Shown piece after piece: positions 29,443-33,335 of a stretch of DNA of 33,335 nt. The notes beneath the pieces are model-generated. The model did not search any database. It had not been told where the DNA came from and worked only from the letters and a program-made list of their open reading frames with translations. This DNA is from Myxococcota bacterium. GTDB lineage: Bacteria; Myxococcota_A; UBA9160; SZUA-336. The translations under genes and the position numbers were made by a program. The stretch spans positions 1 to 33,335 of the forward strand of contig DATKAO010000180.1 of the NCBI GenBank assembly GCA_035498015.1, given 5' to 3'. Within the stretch, counting starts at the first letter, position 1. Each line of letters begins with the position of its first letter.

Positions 29443-29450
29443 CCGGTTTA

Positions 29451-29620
29451 GCCGATCAGGAAGGCCGGTCCGCGGCCGCCCGCGGCCGGCCGTGCAAGCG
29501 CCGAAGGCGCGCGCAGTGAGCCGCGAGCGAACGTAGCCGATCAGGAAGGCCGGTCCGCGGCCGCCCGCGGCCGGCCGTGCAAGCGCCGCAGGCGCGCGCA
29601 GTGAGCCGCAGGCGAACGTA
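29451..29620. repeat. Two tandem 85-bp direct repeats with internal hairpins
   Basis: Unit 1 is 29451-29535 and unit 2 is 29536-29620. They differ at only three positions (29504/29589, 29525/29610, 29526/29611). Each has a long GC hairpin (unit 1: 29463-29475 pairing with 29480-29491, one bulged T) and a short one (GCGCC 29498-29502 with GGCGC 29506-29510, 3-nt loop). The word CGAACGTA closes both units and also occurs at the GST stop (29434-29441). A degenerate third start (GTCAATTAGG, 29621-29630) runs into the end of the next gene. It lies between convergent stops, so a termination or mRNA-stabilising role is plausible. No open frame here looks like a real protein. Confidence 0.9.
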
Positions 29621-29625
29621 GTCAA

Positions 29626-30804
29626 TTAGGACAGCTCGGCTGCCGAGTAGCCCAGGATGTCGCGGGCGATGATCAGCCGCTGGATCTGGCCCGTGCCCTC
29701 GTAGATGTCGGTGATGCGGCAGTCGCGGAACCACTTCTCGAGCAGGTGGTCGCACGAGATGCCGGCCGAGCCGAGCAGCGCGAGACAGCGCTGGGTCGCG
29801 GTGCGCGCGATCTCGCCGCCCTTGGCCTTGGAGATCGACGCCTCCAGGTTGTTCGGCTTGGCCTCGCCCGAGAGCCAGACCGCGTGCAGCACGTCGAGCA
29901 TGGCGGCCTCGATGTCGGCCTCGATCTCGACGAGCTCCTGCTGCGCGGCCGAGCGGCCGTGCACGCCGGCGTTCCAGTCGACCTCCACGCCTTCCGCGGC
30001 CAGCGCGTCGCGCGTGAAGTCGAGCGCGGCCTGCGCGATGCCCAGGCCGATCGCGGCCACGGCGGGGCGAGTCATGTTGAAGGTCTTCATGACGCCCTTG
30101 AAGCCGCCGGCGCCCTCCTTGGGGATCGACTCGTCGCCGCCCAGCAGGTGGTCGCGCGGGATGCGGCAGCTCGAGAACACGTAGGCCGCGGTGTCGTCGG
30201 CCCGGATGCCGAGCTTCTTCTCCTTGTGAGTCACCTCGAAGCCCGGCGTGCCCTTCATGACAATGAAGCTCTTGATGCCGGCGCGGCCCGCGGCCTTATC
30301 GATCGTGGCCCACACCACCACGCCCTCGGCGCGGCAGCCCGTGGTCACGAAGATCTTCTCGCCGTTCAGCACCCACTCGTTGGTGTTCTTGTCCAGCACC
30401 GCCGAGGTCTGCACCGCCTTCGAGTCACTGCCGCAGCCCGGCTCGGTGATCGCCATGGCCAGCGTCTTCGAGCCCCAGCGCTGGTTCTGCTCGGGCGTGC
30501 CCGACGCGCGCAGCGCCGCATTGCCCAGGCCCCCGGTGCCGCGCCGCATGCGCACGGTGTAGTCGCCCCAGGTCTGGCCCGCGGTGACCAGCATGCTCAT
30601 CACGCCCATCGACGAGTCGAGCTCGTCGCGCTTGGCCAGCAGCGCGAACGGGTTCTTGAAGTCCTTGGCCTCCTGGAGCGTGTCGGGGGCGAACTCCTCC
30701 TCGTGGTCGTCGTAGTAGCGGGCGTACTTGCGGCACACGAGCGCCTCTTCGCGCACGGCCGCCAGGACTTTCTCGTCTTTCTCGGAGAGGGTGAAGTCGA
30801 TCAT
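29626..30804 (-). CDS. Acyl-CoA dehydrogenase (YEGT-type)
   Basis: A 392-residue acyl-CoA dehydrogenase. LAMAITEPGCGSDSKAVQTS is the flavin-binding segment, and WVLNGEKIFVTTGCRAEGVV follows. The C-terminal RITDIYEGTGQIQRLIIARD contains the classic catalytic Glu of YEGT, so this copy looks fully equipped. The segment between (EKKLGIRADDTAAYVFSSCR) has the Arg often seen in medium- and short-chain enzymes. The start ATG 30804 lies 19 nt after the stop of the upstream acyl-CoA dehydrogenase on the same strand. Both sit downstream of an HxlR-type regulator, which suggests one regulated transcript, perhaps producing a heteromeric dehydrogenase. The stop TAA abuts the tandem repeats. Confidence 0.94.
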   Translation of the reverse strand: MIDFTLSEKDEKVLAAVREEALVCRKYARYYDDHEEEFAPDTLQEAKDFKNPFALLAKRDELDSSMGVMSMLVTAGQTWGDYTVRMRRGTGGLGNAALRASGTPEQNQRWGSKTLAMAITEPGCGSDSKAVQTSAVLDKNTNEWVLNGEKIFVTTGCRAEGVVVWATIDKAAGRAGIKSFIVMKGTPGFEVTHKEKKLGIRADDTAAYVFSSCRIPRDHLLGGDESIPKEGAGGFKGVMKTFNMTRPAVAAIGLGIAQAALDFTRDALAAEGVEVDWNAGVHGRSAAQQELVEIEADIEAAMLDVLHAVWLSGEAKPNNLEASISKAKGGEIARTATQRCLALLGSAGISCDHLLEKWFRDCRITDIYEGTGQIQRLIIARDILGYSAAELS

Positions 30805-30823
30805 GGCTTTGTAACTCCCTGGC

Positions 30824-31933
30824 TCAGACGGCGCCGACGCTCTCGAGGACCGTGAGCGCGCGCGCGTTGCGGTACCACATCTCCACCGGGTACTCGCGGA
30901 TGTAACCGTGACCGCCGAACACCTGGAGGCCGTTGTCGGCGATCTTCATGACTTCGCGGTTCGCGTAGCAAAGCGCGAGCGTCGCGGCGCGGCTCGCGTC
31001 CTTGCCGTGCTCGAGCAGGCTCGCGGCCTTCCACACCAGGTGGCGCAGCGAGCTCACCTCGATCTGCATCTCGGCCAGCATGAAGGCGATGGTCTGCTTC
31101 TGCGCGATCGGCTGGCCGAACGCGACGCGCTCCTTGGCGTAGGGCAGGGCGAGCTCGTACACGCCGCGCGCCAGGCCGAGTGACAGCGCCGCGCTCGCGG
31201 TGCGCAGCATGGCGAGCAGACGCGCGCCGTCGATGCCGCGGTCGCCGCCGAGCCGCGCCGAGGCCGGCACCTCGACCCGCTCGAGCTCGAGCGAGTAGCG
31301 CGGGAGACACTGGAAGCCGAGCGTGCGCTCCGGCTCCGCCGAGACCGTGAGGCCCTTGGCGCCGCGCGGCACGATGAAGGCCTCGAGCCCGGCTACGCCG
31401 TCGCGCGCGCCGCGCGCCACGACCAAGAGGTGACTCGCGTTCGCGGCCATCGGCACCAGGCGCTTCTTGCCCGAGAGCGAGAATCCCGAGCCCTTGGCCT
31501 CGGCCACGGTGCGCAGGTTGGTCACGTCGAAGCTGAAGGTCGGCTCGAGGATTGCGAGCGAGGCCGCGTGGAAGTCGGACTTGGTGAACAGCGGCAGGAG
31601 CTCCGCCTTCTGCTCGTCGGTGCCGAAGTCGAGCAGCGGCTGCACGAACAGACCCGGAGTCATGGCGGCGGCGGCCAGCGGCACGTCGCCCCAGGCCAGC
31701 TCTTCGAGTACGAGGGCGTTCGTCACGGGTGACCGGCCGATGCCACCTCCGCCGTACGACTCGGGAATGCCGCCCGCCACGAGCCCGAGCTCCCAGCTCT
31801 TCTGCAGCACGTCGTCGGGCAGGGCGCGTTTCTCGTCGCACTCACGCGCGCGCTCGCGCAGCTCGGTCTGCGCGAACTCGTGCACCGTCTGCTGGATGAG
31901 CTCCTGCTCCTCCGTGGGCCCGAATGAGATCAT
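30824..31933 (-). CDS. Acyl-CoA dehydrogenase, divergent catalytic loop
   Basis: A 369-residue acyl-CoA dehydrogenase-family protein. PTEEQELIQQTVHEFAQTEL, GIPESYGGGGIGRSPV and LVLEELAWGDVPLAAAAMTP form the N-terminal domain. ERVAFGQPIAQKQTIAFMLA and QVFGGHGYIREYPVEMWYRN form the C-terminal domain. Where TEPxxGSD is expected, the sequence reads LEPTFSFDVTNLR, and where IYEGT is expected it reads VLESV, ending three residues later. It therefore resembles the small, degenerate partner subunits of alpha2beta2 acyl-CoA dehydrogenases (FadE pairs of mycobacterial sterol catabolism). The start ATG overlaps the regulator's stop (ATGA), and the companion enzyme follows 19 nt on. A heteromer with that partner is my inference. 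Confidence 0.9.
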   Translation of the reverse strand: MISFGPTEEQELIQQTVHEFAQTELRERARECDEKRALPDDVLQKSWELGLVAGGIPESYGGGGIGRSPVTNALVLEELAWGDVPLAAAAMTPGLFVQPLLDFGTDEQKAELLPLFTKSDFHAASLAILEPTFSFDVTNLRTVAEAKGSGFSLSGKKRLVPMAANASHLLVVARGARDGVAGLEAFIVPRGAKGLTVSAEPERTLGFQCLPRYSLELERVEVPASARLGGDRGIDGARLLAMLRTASAALSLGLARGVYELALPYAKERVAFGQPIAQKQTIAFMLAEMQIEVSSLRHLVWKAASLLEHGKDASRAATLALCYANREVMKIADNGLQVFGGHGYIREYPVEMWYRNARALTVLESVGAV

Positions 31934-32679
31934 TTCGCGTCTCCTCGTTCTTTTCTCTTCGGCGAATAAGGCTGGTGGAAGTACCAGGCGATCGAGCCGC
32001 CCCGGCCGTCCTTCTGGAGCTTCCCCTCGGCGACCGCCTCGCGGTCGTCCATGAGTCCAATGGCCAACAGCGTCCAGTCACGCGCGTCGGCCGTGTACCG
32101 CACGTCGGCGCGCTCGGCGAAGCCCTCGCGCACCCGGCAGTCACCGTCGTCGATGTCGATCACCCAGACACCGCCGCCCTTGCCTGTGAGTCGCAGCTCG
32201 TAGGTGATGCGCACGCCCGCCGTGCGCTCGTCGCGCAGCAGGAAGGGCAGGGCCTCGACCACCGAGGCGGCCGTGGTCTCCTTGAACGGTCCGGCCGCGC
32301 GCATGATGTGCCGCACCCACCAGAGCGCGATCTCGCGCACCGCGGGCTCGAGCGTGCGGCCCAGGTCGGTGAGCCCGTACAGCGAGCGCCCACCCGCCGG
32401 CACCGTCTCGACCAGCCGGTTCGCGACCATCTGGCGCAAGCGCGCCGACAGGATGCGCGGCGCGATGCCCGTGCGGCTGCGCAGCTCCTGGAAGCCCCGC
32501 GGCCGGCCCAGGAGGTGCCGTACGAGCACCAGCGTCCAGCGGTCCCCGATCAGGTCGAGGCTGCGGTGGACGGGATCGAAAACGGGACCGCCTTCGGCGA
32601 GCCCATCCGCGGCCACGCGCAGCCCGGCCTCGCGGCGCGGCCGTACCCGTCGGGATCGTGGAGGGGTGGTCGGAGGCAT
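31930..32679 (-). CDS. HxlR-family regulator with a C-terminal SCP2-like domain
   Basis: A 249-residue two-domain transcription factor. After a basic N-terminal tail comes a winged helix: FDPVHRSLDLIGDRWTLVLV, GRPRGFQELRSRTGIAPRIL, then SARLRQMVANRLVETV and the wing GGRSLYGLTDLGRTL, matching HxlR. The redox Cys of the YodB type is absent. The C-terminal 100 residues (about 150-249) read LRLTGKGGGVWVIDIDDGDC, then ERADVRYTADARDWTLLAIG, the pattern of SCP2 sterol-carrier-like domains. The ligand may thus be a lipid, sterol or acyl-CoA. ATG 32679 is chosen over TTG 32709; a later start is possible. It is the first gene of an operon with two acyl-CoA dehydrogenases (ATGA overlap), which are probably its targets. 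The SCP2 call is by pattern only. Confidence 0.85.
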   Translation of the reverse strand: MPPTTPPRSRRVRPRREAGLRVAADGLAEGGPVFDPVHRSLDLIGDRWTLVLVRHLLGRPRGFQELRSRTGIAPRILSARLRQMVANRLVETVPAGGRSLYGLTDLGRTLEPAVREIALWWVRHIMRAAGPFKETTAASVVEALPFLLRDERTAGVRITYELRLTGKGGGVWVIDIDDGDCRVREGFAERADVRYTADARDWTLLAIGLMDDREAVAEGKLQKDGRGGSIAWYFHQPYSPKRKERGDAK

Positions 32680-32691
32680 AGCTCGCAGGAG

Positions 32692-32728
32692 AACATGACA
32701 GAACCGCAATCAGTATTCAAGGGGTACT
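32692..32728 (-). promoter_or_regulatory. Candidate promoter and operator of the regulator operon
   Basis: This short AT-rich patch covers the end of the exported-protein gene and the 37-bp gap. On the minus strand TTGAAT (plus-strand 32715-32720) is a fair -35, and CATGTT 17 nt on (32692-32697) a weak -10. An interrupted dyad AGTA-N9-TACT (32712-32728) covers the -35 and could be a site for the regulator itself. This is a guess from position and symmetry. Confidence 0.25.
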
Positions 32729-33250
32729 ATTCTGTGCGGGTGGCGGCTGGTAGATCTCGCGCAGGCCGGGCTCGTCCTCGCGCAGGAGCTTCAGGCACTC
32801 GGCCTTGGACTTGGCGAGGCGCGCTTCGTTCACCTTCTTCACGCTCGCGATCTTGGCGTGCAGCTCGGCCAGAGCGCTGTCGAGTGTCTCGTGGCCGCCC
32901 GCCTCGGCAGTGCCGTAGCAGATGGCCTTTGCCGGCCACTGGTCCAGGAACACGTCGAACACGTCCCTAGCGTTCGGGATCAATGCACGGCTCACCGCGA
33001 GTCCGAGCTCTTCCGACGACGCGCCGTCGGTACCTTGGTGGAGCGCTACGGCGGCGAGCAGCCAGTCGCGGTTGCCCGACGCGATGTGCTCCATCAGCGG
33101 ACTCCAGGACTCGCTGTCGTAGAGCTCGTGCACGACGGGCGCGGCGCCTCGCGCCCCGATCTCGGCCAGAAGCGCTGCCGGACGGTCGGCCCACGCAACG
33201 GGGCCGGCGCCGAGAGTCACGAACAGAAGCCACAGCCCGCTCTTGCGCAC
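32717..33250 (-). CDS. Small exported protein of unknown function
   Basis: I do not recognise this protein. With GTG 33250 as start it has 177 residues: a signal peptide with basic n-region (VRKSGLWLLFVTLGAGPVAWA, cleavage after AWA) followed by a helical, Ala/Glu/Lys-rich domain. Features are ELYDSESWSPLMEHIASGN, AICYGTAEAGGHETLDSALA (one Cys) and a C-terminal LAKSKAECLKLLREDEPGLR (second Cys), so one disulfide could form. In-frame ATG codons at 33316 and 33322 would extend the tail by 22-24 residues, but they overlap the start of the + strand gene at 33315 and spoil the signal peptide, so I prefer GTG. The regulator gene begins 37 bp downstream of its stop. Function unknown. Confidence 0.65.
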   Translation of the reverse strand: MRKSGLWLLFVTLGAGPVAWADRPAALLAEIGARGAAPVVHELYDSESWSPLMEHIASGNRDWLLAAVALHQGTDGASSEELGLAVSRALIPNARDVFDVFLDQWPAKAICYGTAEAGGHETLDSALAELHAKIASVKKVNEARLAKSKAECLKLLREDEPGLREIYQPPPAQNSTP

Positions 33251-33276
33251 GACCCGTGGACGGATAGCGCATCGGA

Positions 33277-33306
33277 TAAGATGGGCCGCACGAACCACGC
33301 TTGGAG
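33277..33306 (+). promoter_or_regulatory. Candidate -10 and ribosome site for the gene at the right edge
   Basis: TAAGAT (33277-33282) is a possible -10, and GGAG (33303-33306) lies 8 nt before ATG 33315. The leader would be about 25 nt, so this gene appears to use ordinary initiation. Confidence 0.4.
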
Positions 33307-33314
33307 AATTCGAC

Positions 33315-33335
33315 ATGCGCATCGGACTGATGCTG
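33315..33335 (+). CDS. Start of a + strand gene cut by the window edge
   Basis: Only seven codons are visible, MRIGLML, preceded by GGAG at a good distance. Such an opening is common in LLM-class F420- or flavin-dependent oxidoreductases, but seven residues cannot prove it. The existence of a gene is supported by the ribosome site, the upstream TAAGAT and the divergent arrangement. Confidence 0.45.

Follow-up and report, generated by a model that had tools for sequence, protein, structure and literature searches.

A conserved operon joining an HxlR-SCP2 regulator to a predicted two-subunit acyl-CoA dehydrogenase in Myxococcota

We describe a three-gene operon from a Myxococcota bacterium (contig DATKAO010000180.1) in which a regulator built from an HxlR winged helix and an SCP2 domain precedes two acyl-CoA dehydrogenase (ACAD) genes. 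On balance, the regulator is probably a dedicated, autoregulating repressor of a single heterotetrameric ACAD. Both domains of the regulator are recognizable, the gene order is conserved among relatives, a palindromic dyad recurs in front of the regulator gene and has a single site in its own genome, and the two dehydrogenases have lost complementary motifs. The window, that is, the whole stretch of DNA analyzed, is an entire contig (C180; 33,335 bases) of a genome of 4.52 Mb (4,524,131 bases in 257 contigs; 95% complete). The operon and its putative operator are laid out as follows.

31930-32679, minus strand: regulator gene, 249 amino acids (aa); HxlR winged helix (residues 43-127) and SCP2 domain (residues 150-224).
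30824-31933, minus strand: beta-type ACAD subunit P0002, 369 aa; its own flavin site is degenerate, the partner-facing half-site for flavin adenine dinucleotide (FAD) is retained, and there is no C-terminal tail past E364.
29626-30804, minus strand: alpha-type catalytic ACAD subunit P0003, 392 aa; ITEPGCGSD, GEKIFVTTG, and DIYEGTGQIQ are retained, and RxxFG and QxxGGxG are gone.
32712-32728, no strand: dyad AGTA-N9-TACT, putative operator of the regulator; its minus-strand right half, TTGAAT, is a possible -35 element with a weak -10 element 17 nt on.

The regulator stop and the P0002 start share a 4-nt overlap, ATGA, and a gap of 19 nt separates P0002 from P0003; the genes and the overlap lie where the preliminary description of this DNA had placed them. 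The parts of the trio are of known kinds. Our search of the open-licence literature turned up neither a case of one heterotetrameric ACAD served by its own HxlR-SCP2 regulator through a single operator nor a study of the HxlR-SCP2 architecture.

Gene Order and Architecture of the Regulator

We searched 147 genomes, including that of the window, for the regulator and counted matches of 76 bits or more as strong. Strong matches were present in 67 of the 146 relatives and in the window's own genome. The next matches, at 72 bits or less, were other HxlR or HxlR-SCP2 proteins and short fragments, and a second regulator fragment in one relative (G004; 55 residues, 61% identical, at a contig end) was excluded from the counts. 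In 59 of the 67 relatives, an orthologue of the catalytic subunit (cut by a contig end in a few of them) follows downstream at a distance of 1126-1346 nt, sharing contig and strand with the regulator, a spacing that leaves room for one ACAD gene in between. In seven of the eight remaining relatives the regulator lies no more than 1.2 kb from a contig end that faces the ACAD genes; the eighth (G084) gave no match to the catalytic subunit at an E value of 1e-60 among the best 12 of 42 candidates scored. The full trio was present in all 21 loci read, and 16 of these share the 4-nt overlap between regulator and ACAD, which bears out the earlier proposal of a single operon with a conserved gene order. 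Across the class, the regulator was detected in 68 of 90 genomes, many of which are incomplete. When one genome per species was scanned, the only close named records among the best 80 loci were the "Deltaproteobacteria bacterium" assemblies CSMAG_998 and bin407.

Both domains of the regulator exceed their Pfam cut-offs, the HxlR domain (residues 43-127) with 49.4 bits against 20.8 and the SCP2 domain (residues 150-224) with 32.2 bits against 21.3. An AlphaFold model built from 12 sequences has a mean predicted local distance difference test score (pLDDT) of 72.1 and contains a winged helix followed by a five-strand domain with helices. VIA-align matched residues 122-235 of this model to the alkylsulfatase Pisa1 in its SCP2 domain (2yhe_A; Z 14.8, root-mean-square deviation (rmsd) 1.7 over 101 residues) and residues 135-228 to an SCP2 protein of archaeal origin (3bn8_B; Z 12.5, rmsd 1.9 over 91 residues). 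The N-terminal part, residues 40-131, matches the Bacillus HxlR structure 7bze (Z 12.8, rmsd 3.3 over 91 residues), with MarR proteins in a tie. A Foldseek search of the model returned the same two domain assignments. Profiles and model agree that the regulator is a true fusion of an HxlR winged helix with an SCP2 domain, as first proposed, and the structure prediction recovers the SCP2 fold for its C-terminal domain. Judging from the fold alone, lipid sensing by this domain is plausible, and we marginally favor a lipid or acyl-CoA as the effector.

The HxlR fold is shared with the DUF24 regulators YodB and HypR, from which the window regulator differs by its additional SCP2 domain. We mapped onto the regulator alignment the N-terminal position that we take to hold the redox-active Cys of DUF24 sensors. 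Among the 21 orthologues, this position is Asp in 18 and Cys in three, so that the N-terminal Cys of YodB-type thiol sensors is not conserved in this set; the single Cys of the window regulator is at position 181. Thiol (redox) sensing of the YodB/HypR kind was therefore rejected as the main mode, and a sensor of a ligand would fit better.

HxlR-SCP2-like proteins that can be aligned across both domains, with 26-35% identity, are also found by alignment in Actinobacteria, Deinococcus, and Methylobacterium, and the fusion is therefore not unique to this class. On plasmids of Deinococcus and Methylobacterium (loci L273 and L275), such regulators adjoin genes of the dihydrofolate reductase (DHFR) and VOC families, a recurrent context that differs from that of the trio.

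A Conserved Dyad in the Promoter Region

The dyad upstream of the regulator gene reads AGTATTCAAGGGGTACT (32712-32728), and 100 shuffles of the window indicate that none would be expected there. AGTA-N9-TACT matches once in the 4,524,131 bases of the window's own genome. The reversed control pattern gives four matches, so a count of one is unsurprising in itself; the point is that a second site, which would indicate a wider regulon, was absent from this genome in a search for exact matches.

We then took 66 upstream regions of regulator orthologues, with the starts set by alignment to that of the window; two (G012 and G018) could not be anchored, leaving 64, and two further genomes in which a contig end cuts the regulator (G055 and G044) were left out. 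The dyad AGTA-N9-TACT is present in 46 of the 64. Spacings of N3-N8, N10-N12, and N14 do not occur at all in these regions, N13 occurs six times, and N15 twice. After shuffling of the upstream regions (200 times), a mean of 0.02 genomes carried the dyad, and one genome was the largest number reached. The consensus of the 46 extends to AGTATC-N5-GATACT, with T at position 4 in 43, C at position 5 in 40, and G at position 11 in 28. This recurrence upholds the earlier suggestion of an operator, and the dyad is very likely the operator of the HxlR-SCP2 regulator, although this assignment is putative and drawn from sequence conservation.

Promoter elements accompany the dyad in many of these genomes. 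A TTGNH motif starts exactly 14 nt before it in 25 of 46 (as TTGAC in 16), and 26 of 46 have their first open in-frame start codon (ATG or GTG) 6 or 7 nt past it. An example, TTGACA-17-TAGATA, resembles a sigma-70 promoter, with the -10 element in the right half of the dyad and little or no leader. In some relatives (for example G013, G026, and G057), the start codon comes just 6-7 nt after the dyad that holds the -10 element, suggesting leaderless transcripts. A site that lies over a core promoter, is mostly single in a genome, and precedes the gene of a DNA-binding protein resembles the operator of an autorepressor, to which the regulator would bind.

When the pattern was extended to AGTATN7ATACT, 61 sites were found in 52 of the 90 class genomes, mostly one per genome where present. 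At least 13 sites among the matches listed lie away from the operon, which equals the 13 obtained with the reversed control pattern. A wider regulon was set aside on these exact-match counts.

The alternative that the dyad is a promoter element or serves an unrelated regulator, while the HxlR-SCP2 protein acts elsewhere, has to be considered because the right half coincides with a promoter hexamer, so that part of the conservation is promoter conservation. We judge it very unlikely: the element is palindromic over 17 bp, its N9 spacing is fixed, and where present it is mostly a single site per genome. It also shares its half-site with YodB, an HxlR relative for which a TACT-N7-AGTA site is described (PMC8063818). 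Compared with the YodB operator, the half-sites stand in reverse order and are separated by N9 instead of N7.

The position of the dyad also bears on the direction of control. In about half of the dyad-bearing genomes it covers the -10 element and the spacer, as a repressor site would, and we regard repression as likely and activation as the lesser prospect. An unlikely variant of the proposed operon has the regulator acting as an activator or responding to no lipid, with the SCP2 domain serving dimerization or protein contacts or sensing a small hydrophobic drug or aromatic compound. Entries in the PDB do name HxlR itself an activator, and the DHFR- and VOC-family neighbors of the Deinococcus and Methylobacterium regulators would suit such a role; set against this, besides the site over the promoter, is the fact that the regulator heads an operon whose two following genes are both ACADs.

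An open reading frame of 201 aa (32717-33322) lies upstream of the regulator on the same strand, with its stop falling inside the dyad. Scans of it against Pfam and NCBIfam at an E value of 0.1 gave no match.

Division of the Active Site between Two Subunits

ACAD dimers of the medium-chain acyl-CoA dehydrogenase (MCAD) family hold each FAD between the flavin-side motifs of one subunit and an Arg/Phe/Gln helix and QxxGGxG turn of the other. The motifs named in the preliminary description (LEPTFSFD, VLESV, TEPGCGSD, and YEGT) are all present in the two window ACADs. To follow them across the family, we aligned 21 loci out of the 60 with linked genes (the window plus 59 relatives). As in the window, the ACAD genes form an adjacent co-directional pair at each of the 20 other loci read, with 10-78 nt between the beta and alpha genes.

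The beta subunits have lost the flavin side. The Thr and the Ser of TEPGxGSD are gone in 21 of 21 (the Ser being replaced by Phe in 18), as is the Thr of the W-x-T strand (Pro in 16). Residues R269, F272, and Q280 and the QxxGGxG turn (QVFGGHG at 337-343 in the window) are kept in all 21, and the Gly after F272 in only eight. The Glu of VLESV shares an alignment column with the catalytic Glu in YEGT, and this position is occupied by Glu in 17 and by Asp in four of these subunits; Thr is present two positions past it in eight. The C-terminal tail beyond this residue is missing in all 21, the chain stopping about five residues later. The earlier view that both motifs are degenerate thus holds in part: LEPTFSFD is a ruined flavin motif, whereas VLESV retains the aligned catalytic Glu, and what all 21 subunits lack is the tail that follows it. 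The retained Glu has no flavin site to act with.

The alpha subunits are the converse. TEPGCGSD, GEKIFVTTG, and DIYEGTG are kept in 21 of 21. At the ADP-side half-site, the Gln is lost and the Phe is replaced by Tyr or Trp in every sequence, and the Arg and the second Gly are each lost in 20 of 21 (the exceptions being loci L069 and L067, respectively). With this complementary loss, one working site can form per heterodimer, and neither subunit alone should hold FAD properly. These half-sites, consistent over 21 loci, support the earlier proposal of a heteromeric ACAD with one impaired subunit. We predict with high likelihood that the pair is an alpha2beta2 ACAD; homotetramers only are unlikely on this motif pattern.

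The same division of labor is described for steroid-degrading enzymes. In ChsE4-ChsE5, the alpha subunit binds the isoalloxazine and carries the catalytic Glu while the beta subunit contacts the ADP-ribose, and the likeness extends to ChsE1-ChsE2 (FadE26-27 and FadE28-29 for the two enzymes; PMC11153573). The breakdown of steroid side chains is the setting in which alpha2beta2 ACADs are best known (PMC11153573, PMC6678751), and they are also covered in PMC12502768. The likeness to the window pair is one of motif division; the substrates of those enzymes are steroids, and no steroid is indicated for the window pair.

ACAD pairs are common in this genome, which has 54 PF00441 matches (53 over the cut-off) and about 14 clusters in which at least two ACAD genes lie side by side in one direction, several of which display a similar motif split. 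The nearest of its pairs, on contig C108, is 50% identical over P0003 residues 65-391 and 48% identical for P0002. Outside the class, pairs in the same order occur in Nocardia, Rhodococcus DN22, Tsukamurella, an Acinetobacter record, and two more distant genomes of the phylum. P0003 matches those of Nocardia, Rhodococcus, and Tsukamurella with 51.4, 50.5, and 46.8% identity over 80-84% of its length, and P0002 matches the preceding gene in each with 37-38%. Among 13 other pairs (six outside and seven class paralogues), the motif split holds with two blemishes, a beta subunit that still reads TEPTAGFD (G131) and an alpha subunit that keeps GGxG with Glu for Gln (G099). An unrooted tree, computed from a set free of mycobacterial FadE sequences, puts the trio alpha subunits on one side of a 100/100 branch with all other pairs opposite; for the trio beta subunits, the corresponding branch is weak (61/81).

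Several of these features recall the FadE24-FadE23 (Rv3139-Rv3140) pairs of Mycobacteriales, which are likewise adjacent, beta then alpha, with an equal motif split; this likening to Rv3139-Rv3140 is by gene order, not by direct sequence comparison. The order given for Mycobacterium tuberculosis is impC(Rv3137)-pflA-fadE24-fadE23-fadB4 (PMC2834668). Tsukamurella and Rhodococcus have a hisN-type phosphatase gene shortly before the pair, which we would equate with impC, and a quinone-oxidoreductase gene, present in 12 of the 21 trio stretches fetched and not in the window, recalls fadB4 of that cluster (PMC2834668). The trio pair appears from these comparisons to be kin to FadE24-FadE23-like pairs, a candidate for that group rather than an established member. 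Control appears to differ. Unlike the trio, the Rhodococcus DN22 pair has no directly adjoining regulator gene, the Tsukamurella pair is followed by a histidine kinase and response regulator with a helix-turn-helix gene about 3.6 kb on, and the FadE23-FadE24 complex is described as being under SigE (PMC11980559).

Proposed Mechanism and Substrate

We propose that the HxlR domain would bind AGTATC-N5-GATACT over the operon's own promoter, probably as a dimer, and keep that promoter shut. The repressor would be released once a lipid entered the SCP2 pocket, the ligand being a fatty acid or acyl-CoA and perhaps the enzyme's own substrate. The two ACAD genes would then yield an obligate alpha2beta2 enzyme with two active sites, in which the 392-aa subunit supplies the flavin site, catalytic Glu, and substrate pocket and the 369-aa subunit only the side that binds the ADP half of FAD. 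A further step, which we put forward tentatively, is a one-target lipid switch: a class-wide HxlR repressor with an SCP2 effector domain that acts on its own operon only, by way of one palindrome in each genome, with the acyl-CoA that the heterotetramer oxidizes as inducer. If this is true, SCP2-fused winged-helix proteins would be an undescribed family of lipid-responsive repressors. The trio also makes it possible to ask whether an SCP2 domain attached to a DNA-binding domain senses lipids. As there seems to be just one operator, of 17 bp, a screen for lipids that free it could lead straight to the inducer.

Several observations weigh against the dedicated-repressor reading. Confidence in the regulator model is low at residues 1-44, 128-134, and 240-249, and P0002 modeled poorly, with a mean pLDDT of 59.8. 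At three HxlR-SCP2-like loci read outside the class, no annotated ACAD lies within 5 kb on either side, and the presence of an SCP2 domain need not mean lipid catabolism. The exact dyad is missing in 18 of 64 upstream regions. Measured against AGTATN7ATACT, 11 of these have one mismatch and four have two of ten (for G007, shuffles do equally well); G006 and G083, with three and four mismatches, fare no better than shuffled sequence, and G047 had just 54 nt to search. TTGNH is missing from its usual place in 21 of 46 dyad regions. Within the window's own family (f1), the dyad seems to lie at the -35 element (right half TTGAAT) rather than the -10 element, and the window's -10 hexamer, CATGTT, is poor, so the promoter reading is weakest in the window itself. 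FadE23-FadE24, finally, is said to have a catalytic activity other than acyl-CoA dehydrogenation (PMC11980559); if that held for the trio pair, the enzyme part of the explanation would change.

The preliminary description had suggested a sterol-like substrate, and the corresponding alternative is a sense-and-degrade operon for sterol- or steroid-CoA, in which SCP2 would bind a sterol-like ligand and the ACAD pair would attack the sterol side chain. The known roles of alpha2beta2 ACADs (PMC11153573, PMC6678751) speak for it. So does the genome, with its many adjacent ACAD pairs and an HsaA match over the NCBI cut-off (483.7 against 450 bits) beside an extradiol dioxygenase. The P0002 model matches the steroid-ACAD chain 6wy8_A (Z 25.1), but its PDB matches are ACADs in general, and this chain and 4x28_C are tied with many homotetrameric ones. 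The HsaC match, by contrast, stays below the cut-off (264.9 of 450), and no sterol gene is among the 19 window proteins scanned, a subset of the window's genes. Among class genomes, HsaA exceeds the cut-off in 12 of the 68 that have the regulator and in four of the 22 that lack it (odds ratio 0.96, Fisher p = 1.0) in a survey that scored the 12 best candidates in most genomes. One of the four (G064) has its alpha subunit near a contig end, the regulator perhaps being lost to assembly. Those outside pairs that gene order links to named genes are FadE24-FadE23-like; FadE24-FadE23 is described as involved in fatty-acid recycling and as repressed by cholesterol (PMC11980559). A sterol as the substrate is accordingly improbable, the complete sense-and-degrade scheme slightly more so, and a steroid unit, unsupported by the HsaA and HsaC profiles and by neighboring genes, was set aside. 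Heterotetrameric ACADs have so far mostly been read as sterol enzymes, and the trio presents one with an apparent dedicated regulator and a single operator site.

Contig C195 (L263, 9202-13855) of the same genome carries the HsaA-type monooxygenase, the extradiol dioxygenase below the HsaC cut-off, an LLM-class oxidoreductase that exceeds its cut-off, and, one gene further along, a TetR-like regulator that stays below cut-offs. This cluster hints at seco-steroid or aromatic ring cleavage in the organism; nothing links it to the trio.

Neighboring genes in the fetched stretches (14-20 kb) of the 21 loci offered no pathway clue to the substrate. They are mostly housekeeping genes, including quinone oxidoreductase and ndk (12 loci each), ftsZ (10), and ftsA (9); the ftsA/ftsZ/ndk neighborhood (for example at L074, in a stretch of up to 20 kb) is not found in the six loci of the window's family. 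An enoyl-CoA hydratase query had matches in 16 of 21 loci, the window among them, at an E value of 1e-20, hydratases being common. The wide presence of the regulator in the class and of ndk, ftsZ, and ftsA at about half of the loci suggests a core role. Our guess under the dedicated-repressor reading is that the substrate would be a bulky or branched acyl-CoA from the cell's own lipids, the trio acting, for example, in the turnover of endogenous acyl chains that are branched or bulky in some other way.

Finally, two head-to-tail units of 85 nt, very GC-rich and 96% identical, occupy 29449-29618 of the window, between the ends of the GST and catalytic ACAD genes.

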